From assembly GCA_030043395.1 (NCBI GenBank), contig JASHXW010000434.1:1-7865 (forward strand): a stretch of DNA of 7,865 nt. The letters run 5' to 3'. The translations under genes were made by a program, and so were the position numbers. Numbering within the stretch: position 1 is the first letter of the stretch; each line of letters begins with the position of its first letter. The notes under the pieces were generated by a model. It saw only the letters and a list, made by a program, of their open reading frames with translations, ran no database searches and was not told the DNA's origin. The stretch is from Streptosporangiaceae bacterium. GTDB lineage: Bacteria > Actinomycetota > Actinomycetes > Streptosporangiales > Streptosporangiaceae. Of this stretch, positions 1 to 7,865 are shown in pieces.

Positions 1-18
1 TGGTACCCGTTTTCGCTG

Positions 19-33
19 GTAGAGAATTTCTAC
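19..33. repeat. short AT-rich inverted repeat
   Basis: GTAGA and TCTAC arms of 5 bp flank a GAATT centre. It lies in the non-coding stretch to the left of the DnaA-box cluster and could be a small protein-binding site. The arms are too short to exclude chance, and no function is assigned. Confidence 0.3.
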
Positions 34-66: not shown

Positions 67-90
67 AACTAATTTCAAGATTCTTTAGCT
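67..90. other. AT-rich patch beside DnaA boxes (possible unwinding element)
   Basis: This 24-bp stretch is 18/24 A+T, in striking contrast with the GC-rich surroundings. It directly abuts the first DnaA-box-like 9-mer. In bacterial origins an AT-rich duplex-unwinding element typically sits next to DnaA boxes, so the arrangement fits that plan. The composition is seen directly; the unwinding role is inferred. Confidence 0.35.
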
Positions 91-172
91 GTCCACAGAT
101 AGTCCACAGCTCATCCACCACGGCGGCCCCGTTATCCACAGAATGACGCTCGCTTCGCCGCTGTCATCCACA
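89..172 (+). promoter_or_regulatory. cluster of five phased DnaA-box-like sites
   Basis: Five 9-mers occur on the same strand. They are CTGTCCACA (89-97), TAGTCCACA (100-108), TCATCCACC (111-119), TTATCCACA (132-140) and TCATCCACA (164-172). The fourth is a perfect match to the classical DnaA box. The first and second differ at one base from the actinobacterial form TTGTCCACA, the fifth at one base from TTATCCACA, and the third at two. Start-to-start distances are 11, 11, 21 and 32 bp, close to 1, 1, 2 and 3 turns of B-DNA, so all would face the same side of the helix. Such arrays bind DnaA at replication origins, at titration loci or at DnaA-regulated genes. No dnaA, dnaN or par gene is visible in the window, so which of these applies is open. 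Confidence 0.7.
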
Positions 173-233: not shown

Positions 234-1277
234 CTAGAAGACCGGGATGATGTCCTCGGCGTTGATGTCGTCGGACACGTCCACGCCCTCGATGTCCAGC
301 TCGGGCATCGCGGGGAAGTCGATCCCCCAGCGCTGGACGATGACGCGGATCTTGGCGATCGCGCTCCGCCAGTTGTCCGCTTGCTCGTCGTACGACAGCA
401 CCCCGAGGCCCGCGTCCCTGGCATGGTCCATCAGGACGCGATGGTTGTTCAGGAAGTAAGGCGGAAGGTCCCAGAACCCTTCTGGCGGTTCCCAGAGGAT
501 CATCGACAGGAAGACGAATCCCGCCCGCAGCTGCCTGGTGATTGTCGCCCTGACCTCATCGGTCAGGCCGGGCCACTCGTTCTCCAGGATCGTCATGCAG
601 ATCTGCAGGTGCCGGGACTCGTCCCTGCCGATCTTGTGGAACATCTCGGAGAAGACCGGGTGCTTGGTGCCGGAGGCCATTCCGCGAAACAGCGTCGACG
701 CGGCCATCTCGCCCATCATGAAGCTGGTGAACAGCACCGGCAGCGAGTAACGCCCGACGGCGTTGCTGTAGCCCTTCCAGTACCGGCCGCCGTTGTGGTA
801 CAGCCACCCGATGTTGTTGTGCGCGGCACGCTCGAGGTCGGTGCTCGGTGTCCAGTTCAGCGGCCCTCCGGGCCACAGGCAGGCGATCGAGCGCTGGCAG
901 CACTCCTCGTGGTTCATCTCGTCCCTGGTGATCGAGAAGAAGCACTTGCGAACCGGGTCTTCCTCGTGCTGCTCGAAGGCCCTGATCGTTGCCCGAGCGA
1001 ACACGGCAGGGCCTGATGCGTCGAAGTTCGCCAGCACCGAGAACCAGTACATGATCCCCAGCCGCTGCTCGGTGCTGAAGTCCTCGGGCCGCAGTCCGGC
1101 CCACGGCAGGTCAGCCGGGTTCCAGGCCATCAGCTTGGACTTCTGGTAGATAGCGGCGAGTTTCTCGGTCTCGACCCGCCACTCCATCGGGTAGATGTTC
1201 GGCTGCGGCACCTCCGGAGCGGGCCAGAACCCGCCATCGGGGACCAGAAGCTCTCGTTCCACCTTCGGTTCCGCCAT
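234..1277 (-). CDS. ferritin-like diiron protein (R2/oxygenase-like)
   Basis: This 347-residue protein carries the four-helix diiron signature of the ferritin-like/RNR-R2 superfamily. The motifs are DEMNH (E120, H123), a lone helix glutamate in MMGEM (E190) and DESRH (E220, H223). The first ligand is probably D86 in the segment NFDASG; related proteins often have Glu there, whereas class Ia R2 uses Asp. The WNPADLPW segment (52-59) resembles the pre-helix motif of bacterial ferritin-like oxygenases. No signal peptide or membrane segment is seen, so it is presumably cytosolic. The likely chemistry is O2-dependent oxidation or oxygenation; the substrate is unknown, and a true ribonucleotide reductase role is unlikely because no nrdA-like partner is nearby. 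The start is well supported: AAGGAGT (1284-1290 on the complement) sits 7 nt upstream of ATG. It is monocistronic, divergent from the SnoaL-like gene, and followed at once by a hairpin. Confidence 0.85.
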   Translation of the reverse strand: MAEPKVERELLVPDGGFWPAPEVPQPNIYPMEWRVETEKLAAIYQKSKLMAWNPADLPWAGLRPEDFSTEQRLGIMYWFSVLANFDASGPAVFARATIRAFEQHEEDPVRKCFFSITRDEMNHEECCQRSIACLWPGGPLNWTPSTDLERAAHNNIGWLYHNGGRYWKGYSNAVGRYSLPVLFTSFMMGEMAASTLFRGMASGTKHPVFSEMFHKIGRDESRHLQICMTILENEWPGLTDEVRATITRQLRAGFVFLSMILWEPPEGFWDLPPYFLNNHRVLMDHARDAGLGVLSYDEQADNWRSAIAKIRVIVQRWGIDFPAMPELDIEGVDVSDDINAEDIIPVF

Positions 1278-5474: not shown

Positions 5475-6859
5475 CGGCCGGTGCGCGCGGGAAAGCGAGC
5501 CGGGTCAGCCTGCTAACGTCGTGGCGCTCAGGCCCGCTCGCGGTCAGGGAGTTCAGGCTGCTCAGCCTGGGCCAGTTCGCCTCGACGGTGGGAGATGCCT
5601 GCTACGCGGTCGCGCTGCCCTGGTTCGTGCTGTCCGCCCACGGCGGCGCCGTCCTGCTCGGCACGGTGCTTGCGTGCTACGGCGTGCCGCGCACCGTGCT
5701 GATCCCCGTCGGCGGGGTGCTGGCGGACAAGTTCGGCCCGCGGGCCGTGATGCTCGCTGCCGACGCGACCAGGTGCCTGCTGGTCGCCGTGCTTGCCGTC
5801 CTTGCCGCCCGGCACATGGACTCCTTGGCGCTGCTCGGCCCGATCGCGGCGCTCCTCGGCGCGGGCGAGGGAGCGTTCATCCCCGCCTCGTACTCGATCA
5901 TGCCCGCGCTGTTGCAACCTGAGCAGCTGGCCGCGGGGAACTCGTTGTTCACGGCCCTGCTGCAACTCGGCACGCTCGGCGGTCCGGTGCTTGGCGGCCT
6001 GCTGGTGGGCACCGCAGGTCCCGCTCCCGCGTTCGCCATCGACGCGGCGTCCTTCGCGGTGTCTGCTGGCGCGCTGATCCTGCTGCGAGCACCCCGGCCG
6101 GTCCAGGAGGCCGCCGTCGCGGCGCAGGCCGACGGCGCCTTGCCTGTGCCGGACGAGCCGGCCGGCCCGCAGCAGGCGGCCAGTCAGCCGCCCGCGGCAT
6201 CGCCGCAGGCCGCGGAGCCCGGCGCGGCAAGCTCCGTGTGGTCCCTGCTGCGCCAGTCCAGGCTCTTGCAGATCATCGTCGGCGTCTGCATCGTCGCGAA
6301 CCTCAGCTCGGGGGGCACGTTCGAGGTCGCGCTGCCTGACCTGGCCCACAAGCTGTACGCGGCAGCCGGCTACGGAGCGCTCGTCGCCTGCTTCGGCGGC
6401 GGCGCAGCCGTCGGCACGCTCGCCGCCGCGCGCGCCGGCCGCCTGCCCCGCCCGGGCGCGACCGCGATGTACGTGTTCCTGGCCGAGGCTGTGGCCGCCA
6501 GCCTCGTGCCATTCGCCGGCGGGCTTGCCGGGGCCTGCGCGGCGATCGCCATATTCGGGATGTGCAACGGATTCGGAAACGTCGTCGTCGTGACGCTCCT
6601 GCAGCAATGGGCGCCGCAGCAGCTGCTTGGCAGGGTAATGAGCCTGGTGATGCTCGCCGCCATTGGCGTATTCCCGATATCAGTCGCGGTGGCCGGGGTC
6701 CTGGTCAGGCAGTTCGGGCCGACGCCGTTCTTCCCGGCAGCAGGGCTCGTGCTGGCTGTGCCGATCCTGGCCGGGCTTTGTACCCGCGAGATCCGCAACT
6801 TCGGCGTGCAGGCCGGCCAGCCGAGTCAGTCAGATCACGCTGCCGTGCTGGCCAGGTAA
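5471..6859 (+). CDS. MFS exporter (EntS/MFS_3-like drug or metabolite efflux)
   Basis: This 462-residue integral membrane protein has about 12 predicted transmembrane segments in two halves. The halves are joined by a long Ala/Pro/Gln-rich cytoplasmic linker (about 208-252). Motif A is recognisable as GGVLADKFGPR (81-91) after TM2. The paired loop motifs LLQPEQLAAGNSL (147-159) and QQWAPQQLLGRVMSL (378-392) are characteristic of the MFS_3/EntS branch of proton-driven exporters. Its ATG overlaps the stop of the ArsR-like regulator by 4 nt, and no good Shine-Dalgarno site precedes it, so it is probably translated by coupling from the regulator. The substrate cannot be read from sequence; a toxic compound, siderophore or secondary metabolite are all possible. 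The last 25 bp overlap the convergent HNH endonuclease gene. Confidence 0.9.
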   Translation: MTAGARGKASRVSLLTSWRSGPLAVREFRLLSLGQFASTVGDACYAVALPWFVLSAHGGAVLLGTVLACYGVPRTVLIPVGGVLADKFGPRAVMLAADATRCLLVAVLAVLAARHMDSLALLGPIAALLGAGEGAFIPASYSIMPALLQPEQLAAGNSLFTALLQLGTLGGPVLGGLLVGTAGPAPAFAIDAASFAVSAGALILLRAPRPVQEAAVAAQADGALPVPDEPAGPQQAASQPPAASPQAAEPGAASSVWSLLRQSRLLQIIVGVCIVANLSSGGTFEVALPDLAHKLYAAAGYGALVACFGGGAAVGTLAAARAGRLPRPGATAMYVFLAEAVAASLVPFAGGLAGACAAIAIFGMCNGFGNVVVVTLLQQWAPQQLLGRVMSLVMLAAIGVFPISVAVAGVLVRQFGPTPFFPAAGLVLAVPILAGLCTREIRNFGVQAGQPSQSDHAAVLAR

Positions 6860-7344
6860 GCGGCCCACTGCGGGTCGCCATCCCTGGCCGCGCCGATCAG
6901 CCGCCAGTGCGAGCCACGCGGCGCCAGCGGATCCCAGCGCAGCGTCCAGCCGAGCTCCTCGATCAGCCGGTCCGCCTTGCGATGGTTGCACTTCGTGCAC
7001 GACGCCACGCAGTTCTCCCACACGTGGGCGCCGCCCCTGCTGCGCGGGATGACGTGGTCGATGGTGTCCGCGGCGGCGCCGCAGTAAGCGCAGGCGAAGT
7101 TGTCCCTGCGCATCAGGGCTGCCCTGGTCAGGGGCACCCGGTTGCGATGCGGAACCCGGACGTAACGCCGGAGCCTGATCACGGAGGGCGCTGTCAGCAC
7201 GACCGACGCGGAATGCAAGACGAGCCCGTTGGAATCGTCGTGCAGGATCTCCGCCTTCTCAGCGAGCACAAGTCCCACGGCCCGGTGCAGGCCGACGGTG
7301 GTCAGCGGCTCGTAAGTGATGTTGAGCAGCAGTACCCTGCGCAA
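6835..7344 (-). CDS. HNH endonuclease family protein
   Basis: This 169-residue protein is of the stand-alone HNH type common in actinobacterial chromosomes. The N-terminus RRVLLLNITYEPL leads into an alpha/beta region. A zinc-binding HNH domain follows, with CAYC (C85, C88) and CTKC (C116, C119) as metal ligands, IDHVIPRSRGG with H97 in the core motif, N111, and H121 in CNHRKAD. The C-terminal RLIEELGWTLRWDPL and DPQWAAYL also fit the family. The chosen start is TTG 7344, preceded by GGAGG 5 nt upstream, and the protein then begins as homologues do. A longer frame to ATG 7428 adds 28 residues without family character. The physiological role of these proteins is not established; no intron, phage or restriction partner is nearby, so it looks like a resident gene. 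It is divergent from glbO. Confidence 0.88.
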   Translation of the reverse strand: MRRVLLLNITYEPLTTVGLHRAVGLVLAEKAEILHDDSNGLVLHSASVVLTAPSVIRLRRYVRVPHRNRVPLTRAALMRRDNFACAYCGAAADTIDHVIPRSRGGAHVWENCVASCTKCNHRKADRLIEELGWTLRWDPLAPRGSHWRLIGAARDGDPQWAAYLASTAA

Positions 7345-7620
7345 TGCCACCTCCCCAGACCGGGCTGCCCGCTGGCTGCCGAGGCACCCGTGACCAGTGT
7401 GATGGGACGACGGGCACGCCGCCAACACCTATTTACGCTAAGCGGCGGCCGCGCCGGCGAACTCGCCATGAATCACAGGTGACGATCCGCCTGCATGCGC
7501 TCATCGAACTCCTCAAGCACATGCCGGGCCGCGTGCCGCCATGGTGCCAGCGTATGCGACGCCGATCAGCATCGTCGCGGGTCAAGCCGCTGAAGCACGG
7601 CCAGTACGCTGGAGTGCGAC
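7345..7620. other. divergent intergenic region between HNH gene and glbO
   Basis: The stretch shows no convincing gene. It contains GCCGCC (7418-7423) and GGCGGC (7444-7449) as a 6-bp inverted repeat around a 20-nt AT-richer centre (CTATTTACGCTAA), which may hold the HNH promoter. A GGAG Shine-Dalgarno site (7611-7614) lies 6 nt before glbO. Open frames crossing it are GC-driven and lack family resemblance. Confidence 0.45.
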
Positions 7621-7865
7621 ATGGAGAACACAGCGCAGGACGCCACAGCAGGGCAGAGCTTCTACGAGGCGGTCGGCGGCGCGGAGACATTCACCCGCCT
7701 GGTCCGGCGGTTCTACGCCGAAGTCGAGTCCGATCCTGATCTCCGGCGGGTCTATCCCAGCCGCGACCTCGGGCCCGCGGAAGAGCACCTGCGGCTGTTC
7801 CTGATGCAGTACTGGGGCGGACCGACGACCTACGACGAGCTGCGCGGCCATCCGCGGCTCCGGAT
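7621..7865 (+). CDS. glbO: truncated haemoglobin GlbO, N-terminal part
   Basis: This is the first 81 residues of a group II truncated haemoglobin, cut by the window edge. The core [22 protein letters not shown] (14-35) and the segment [14 protein letters not shown] through [18 protein letters not shown] closely match the M. tuberculosis GlbO family. The distal residues tyrosine B10 (Y32 in RFYAEV) and tyrosine CD1 (Y45 in RRVYP) are both present. The proximal histidine F8 and tryptophan G8 lie beyond the window. The family binds O2 tightly in the cytoplasm and is linked to redox and respiratory protection. A leader of about 13 residues ([13 protein letters not shown]) precedes the globin fold. 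The start has GGAG 6 nt upstream. It is divergent from the HNH gene. Confidence 0.93.

Follow-up and report, generated by a model that had tools for sequence, protein, structure and literature searches.

A helically phased array of DnaA-box-like sites precedes the promoter of a putative noncoding RNA gene in actinomycetes

DnaA is a transcription factor as well as the initiator of replication. Which of these roles, if either, is served by a cluster of DnaA-box-like sites lying away from dnaA and dnaN, beside the gene of a diiron protein? The question is raised by a 7,865-nt contig of a Streptosporangiaceae bacterium (GenBank assembly GCA_030043395.1, contig JASHXW010000434.1), the whole of which is referred to here as the window. 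Five sites fall within 84 bp (89-172), all on the plus strand and with start-to-start spacings of 11, 11, 21 and 32 bp: CTGTCCACA (89-97), TAGTCCACA (100-108), the weak site TCATCCACC (111-119), the perfect box TTATCCACA (132-140) and TCATCCACA (164-172). This arrangement, claimed in a preliminary description of the DNA, was confirmed by a site scan, and the adjoining bases 67-90 are indeed 75% AT. Single sites with up to two mismatches are frequent: the window has 10 where 6.2 are expected, and 25 of 200 shuffles reach that number. The same-strand cluster of five is rare; 1000 first-order Markov simulations of the window never exceeded three (one site in 840 runs, two in 155 and three in 5).

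The box stretch runs on leftward into a promoter-like element (27-55) and a conserved RNA start (6-22). Reading along the minus strand, the boxes are followed by a conserved AT-rich motif, AAAGAATCTTGAAATT (71-86), a -35-like hexamer TTGTGC (50-55), a 17-bp spacer and a -10-like hexamer TAGAAA (27-32), the last assigned from the family alignment. Counted from this promoter, the five boxes lie at about -39, -50, -61, -82 and -114. A transcription start is predicted near base 20, and the sequence CTACCAGCGAAAACGGG at 6-22 belongs to the 5′ start of a putative noncoding RNA (1-22, minus strand) that is cut by the left end of the window, the predicted leftward transcript leaving it at base 1. The same start is found in relatives (loci L001, L002 and L003) and, diverged, in copies at other places. 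A model of the array plus promoter (R2) matches the window at 2-176 on the minus strand with an E-value of 7.9e-25, the window being one of its 38 training rows.

The neighbour upstream of the RNA gene encodes a ferritin-like diiron protein (234-1277, minus strand; Rubrerythrin/AurF matches below the Pfam cut-off). Directly 3′ of it lies an 11-bp perfect inverted repeat (196-233), a probable terminator separating the diiron gene from the array. The window encodes ordinary bacterial genes, and the named proteins nearest to the diiron protein come from actinobacteria, for the most part Streptosporangiales. At the far end, the window boundary truncates a bacterial-like globin gene (7621-7865); before it, on the opposite strand, lies a gene for an HNH endonuclease (6835-7347).

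Eighty loci around relatives of the diiron protein were scanned with a strict box pattern, a cluster being defined as at least three boxes. Clusters were present in four (L001, L002, L003 and L007), downstream of the gene and in the orientation seen in the window, directly past the gene in the first three and at a distance of about 740 bp in L007. The other 76 showed none within the available DNA, some contigs ending early (72 bases in L005, 304 in L033 and 375 in L031). The genome of L004 carries an array-RNA element at another place. Beyond the boxes, the four loci share AAAGAATC(T/A)TGAAATT-like DNA (diverged in L002), a promoter of TTGTGC or TTGCGC followed by a TAGAAA-like hexamer, a conserved start, a segment rich in hairpins and a terminator whose loop is CATCTCATACATG. 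The genes beyond the RNA are DUF1707 and dapA in L002, dapA and RNase J in L007, and cobS in L001. Conservation in close relatives, which had been put forward as a check, is thus mixed: the element persists, while the cluster was seen at the diiron site in only four of the 80 loci. When the array and promoter were used as a DNA query in 12 genomes, clear matches were obtained only in G001, G002 and G003. Cobalamin riboswitches occur on the opposite strand in the diiron loci L001, L002, L003, L005 and L006, upstream of the diiron gene in the last four and beside cobalamin genes in L001.

The element proved to be one member of a dispersed family. Among 200 genomes of the bacterial family, the terminator pattern (up to two mismatches) matched 28, one to five times each, some of which are chance matches since the backward control matched 8 of 200. 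A promoter regular expression applied within the terminator-pattern loci gave 48 distinct copies, the window among them; the selection made no use of boxes, AT motif or RNA body. The 45 copies with at least 170 nt upstream entered the count of boxes and positions. For the alignments, 29 short full-length copies yielded 25 in A3 and 22 in A4, and 38 of the 41 boxed copies entered A5. In 41 of the 45, a stretch of 150 bp held two or more TGTGGA and three or more GTGGA, almost always in a single orientation. The mean per copy was 2.38 for TGTGGA versus 0.04 for TCCACA, and two or more TGTGGA were found in 1.25% of control windows, which include the arrays themselves. The spacer between the -35 and -10 hexamers, which are not textbook, is 16-17 bp in all 45, the hexamers having been a selection criterion; the constancy of the promoter hexamers and of the CTCATAC hairpin is partly due to selection, because both served to pick the copies. 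Allowing up to two mismatches, 32 of the 45 show the motif AAAGAATCTTGAA at -29 to -31 relative to the -35 element; in the other 13 it was not found.

Searched against the same 200 genomes, R2 returned 45 full-length array-promoter units in 24 genomes, with up to three per genome, and 69 further weak matches, mostly box-only. These whole-genome model searches scored few candidates per genome under strict filters, so absences from them are soft. The inspected loci, the window included, have 46 full-length matches, two of which run off sequence ends; each of the remaining 44 has a match to model R1 within 300 nt downstream, a result that tests linkage rather than discovery, because most of those copies had served as training data for both models. 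RNA copies without an array also exist. The GTGGA box is absent in four of the 45 copies, which keep promoter and hairpin, and hence the boxes are not required for the RNA. Box-less copies (L139, L143, L165 and L185), of which several stand second in a tandem pair, provide natural comparisons for the role of the boxes. Other loci have the hairpin only: the terminator-like hairpin CCAGCTCATACCTGG marks a further locus in several genomes with no R2 array match (L160, L161, L163 and L164).

The helical phasing asserted in the preliminary description was borne out across many copies. In the 45 family copies, boxes cluster near -39, -50, -60, -71, -81, -92, -103 and -114 from the promoter, the rung at -39 holding the most sites, and a period of 10.7 bp counted from the promoter gave R = 0.778 over 180 sites. 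Rungs 1, 2, 3, 5 and 8 are occupied in the window. Across the copies, neighbouring boxes are usually 11-12 or 20-23 bp apart, the commonest single spacing being 12 bp, not 10.7. A class-level set (85 sites at 19 other loci; see below) gave R = 0.777 at 10.7 bp and its best value, 0.813, at 10.9 bp. The ladder phase was 3.7 bp in the class set versus 4.1 bp in the family set (main rungs only), i.e. within 0.5 bp. The copies share ancestry, so that the counts and phase tests are not independent, and a fixed distance between box and promoter can be inherited without function. The low-affinity DnaA-ATP sites of E. coli oriC, 2 bp apart, support cooperative DnaA binding, and by arithmetic such gaps correspond to 11 bp from start to start, as in the window (available portion of PMC6727663). 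Unlike those arrays, the present one is no origin, and its ladder points at a promoter. The spacing of origin boxes tolerates whole but not partial turns, as excerpted from PMC4285127.

The predicted transcript is about 200-500 nt long in relatives and ends in a hairpin with the loop CUCAUAC. An alignment of 22 copies gave a consensus of 40 base pairs, 22 of which show two-sided changes. All five structure measures exceeded all 500 shuffles and every slid control, the structure having been derived from the same alignment, which favours it. The only copy folded alone, L149, gave z = -6.2, that is 6.2 standard deviations below its shuffles. A closed ATG or GTG reading frame is absent from 25 of the 48 copies; the longest elsewhere has 83 codons in a single copy (TTG starts not counted). 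Covarying structure is thus combined with the lack of a conserved reading frame, consistent with a noncoding RNA, and a small-protein gene was set aside given the 25 copies without such a frame. At the gathering score, none of the 4227 Rfam families matched the element in the window, in seven loci or in 20 class loci, and a lax search of eight loci gave sub-threshold matches only. The element looks like an undescribed noncoding RNA gene of actinomycetes, often in several copies and not listed in Rfam.

The element extends beyond the family. Of 296 genomes sampled from the class, nine matched the terminator pattern (one mismatch), eight of them new, and an array lay upstream in all eight new loci (E-values from 1.9e-14 to 8.4e-23), none of which was in the training set of R2. 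A search of 394 class genomes with the relaxed hairpin GGCCCCT-N4-CTCATAC-N4-AGGGGCC gave matches in 50, and with its backward control in none. Thirty loci, including the eight already found by the terminator pattern, were inspected: R2 matched 20 at E-values of 4e-12 or below and eight weakly (0.003 to 2e-6), five of these by the promoter part only, and two had no R2 match, one being cut by a contig end. A broader promoter motif, its regular expression written after viewing the loci, occurred once each in 19 of the 30 and nowhere else in 169,926 nt. Two or more sense GTGGA occur in 17 of these 19 promoter-bearing loci and two TCCAC in none, compared with 3.0% of control windows (arrays included); L310 has one box only. 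The stem bases beside the loop change in pairs, and CTCATAC is constant, as the pattern demands. Flanking genes vary from copy to copy (20 proteins at 16 loci). In a phylum sample, R1 matched five of 396 genomes, one strongly (G003); the weak match in G286 looks on inspection like a divergent member.

Two class-level loci depart from the usual form. In L282 the usual type of promoter and RNA is preceded by four TCCAC boxes, whose orientation is reversed relative to most other copies. L308, from an AT-richer genome of 1.6 Mb (G812), has no box, and its promoter and hairpin (one loop mismatch) make it a possible member, in which case the RNA family may reach small-genome actinomycetes.

Could the cluster be an origin? 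The layout of phased boxes beside an AT-rich patch had been read as that of a replication-initiation element, perhaps the edge of oriC or a chromid or plasmid origin. In six relatives (G001-G005 and G007), however, dnaA and then dnaN lie elsewhere with their own boxes in the gap between them (tblastn identified DnaN in all six, and Pfam confirmed it at five loci). An AT-rich, trio-like tract lies 3′ of the box in the relatives' oriC, as judged by eye, whereas the window's AT patch (71-86) is 5′ of TTATCCACA, and no unwinding tract was found 3′ of that box; in B. subtilis, reversing the boxes beside the trios inactivates the unwinding region (available text of PMC6669920). The boxes all face one way, up to three full units occur per genome in differing gene settings, and no replication or partition gene was found among the eight genes of the window scanned, nor a rep gene or iterons among their eight proteins and seven neighbours in L001, L002 and L007. 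An origin, an origin remnant, or a chromid or plasmid origin is accordingly extremely unlikely, and the origin and origin-edge readings were rejected on the relatives' oriC, box polarity and neighbours. A mobile or phage element was also rejected: viral contigs contained no match to the diiron protein and no exact match to the hairpin. The diiron protein matches five plasmid records, and the one inspected (L081, 21 kb) is without a box cluster.

The relatives' origins are informative in another respect. R2 was trained without oriC, and 42 of its 69 weak matches were checked: 36 are located beside both dnaA and dnaN, and one beside dnaA only. The sites thus resemble the group's oriC in both box sequence and spacing, and this landing at dnaA/dnaN in 37 of 42 cases is the strongest evidence that they are DnaA boxes, as far as sequence can indicate. 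The five checked matches away from dnaA/dnaN are L246, L257, L259, L266 and L269. L259 (1701-2100, genome G061) has a DnaA-box array immediately before a dnaB helicase gene, about 36 kb from that genome's oriC, the RNA being absent there. Binding by some other protein that controls the RNA would fit the fact that several rungs are weak matches (GGTGGA and GGGGATAA); boxes of the GGGGATAA type are, however, also present in the relatives' oriC, and with the hits at dnaA/dnaN such a protein appears very unlikely.

We consider that bases 1-172 probably comprise the control region and the first nucleotides of a leftward-transcribed noncoding RNA gene under the control of DnaA. The same-facing boxes are spaced by about one turn of the helix or by integral multiples of it; DnaA would occupy them cooperatively along one side of the double helix and from there influence the promoter at 27-55. 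That boxes and promoter keep a constant phase is consistent with a DnaA-controlled regulatory region, the option among those first proposed that now finds support. Since an origin-like box geometry is locked to a promoter, DnaA would serve as a transcription factor and not merely be titrated, and activation is favoured by inference because the boxes lie wholly upstream of the -35 element. The boxes would sense free or ATP-bound DnaA, so that expression of the RNA should track the initiation of replication or the activity of DnaA. The transcript would fold into several hairpins with GNRA-type loops and end in a strong terminator hairpin, whose exposed CUCAUAC loop is, by inference, the likeliest site of contact between the putative RNA and a target. 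The arrangement suggests that the replication-initiating protein also controls the putative RNA. We put forward more tentatively the broader proposal of an RNA family across the class Actinomycetes with helically phased, oriC-like DnaA arrays at its promoters, through which the initiator would gate RNA regulators directly. If so, the replication cycle would be coupled to gene expression through RNA, in several copies per genome in some lineages.

datA-type sites change the timing of initiation, assisted by IHF, and the present array is, like them, a DnaA-box cluster outside oriC. It might accordingly titrate or inactivate DnaA, the promoter and RNA being separate or aiding only by transcription through the site. 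Up to three units per genome would add many boxes, and clusters near oriC in Streptomyces coelicolor and Bacillus subtilis are reported to repress untimely initiation; these, like datA/DARS, are likewise box clusters outside oriC (available sections of PMC4585315). Unlike datA/DARS as portrayed there, the arrays stand in fixed phase before a promoter and the same RNA in 44 of 44 uncut full-length cases, and the helical register recurs in two separate sets; a sink needs neither, which makes titration as the sole function unlikely. Under the favoured reading of a DnaA-controlled RNA gene, the extra arrays may also titrate DnaA.

Searches of the open-licence literature brought up no described noncoding RNA family whose promoters have a DnaA-box array of their own, and the only comparable pairing of DnaA boxes with a small RNA, in the texts available, is CcnA of Caulobacter crescentus, a 182-nt noncoding RNA with three weak DnaA boxes in its gene and a role in the cell cycle (PMC8959179, in part). 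Both are noncoding RNA genes with DnaA boxes; CcnA lies at the origin and has CtrA boxes in that account, whereas the present RNA lies away from oriC, is often multicopy and has a phased upstream array. The loop sequence CATCTCATACATG occurred, within the same partly available literature, only in an unrelated paper.

The Ms1/6S-type RNAs of Actinobacteria are likewise structured, noncoding and widespread in actinomycetes; Ms1 is tracked by a HAD-hydrolase/CpaE/oxidoreductase neighbourhood in genera including Planomonospora, Streptosporangium and Actinoallomurus (accessible parts of PMC9130861 and PMC11077062). The terminator pattern had no match in the genomes of those three genera (G009, G012 and G011). 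None of the 20 flanking proteins of 16 loci (three without a Pfam match), nor of seven more, was annotated as HAD hydrolase, CpaE or oxidoreductase. The 20 do include one flavin reductase and one APP1 phosphatase, which we take to be HAD-like. Identity with Ms1 was set aside on neighbourhood, sequence and structure having been compared through Rfam only.

If the DnaA-controlled reading is correct, the element would offer a direct readout of DnaA activity in actinomycetes and a new RNA with a conserved loop. The family would be spread among actinomycetes, with cultivated relatives suitable for tests; one class-level carrier, G843, is close to Pedococcus, of the non-pathogenic, soil-dwelling Pedococcus/Phycicoccus group, a neighbour protein at its locus L284 being 98% identical to one of Pedococcus sp.
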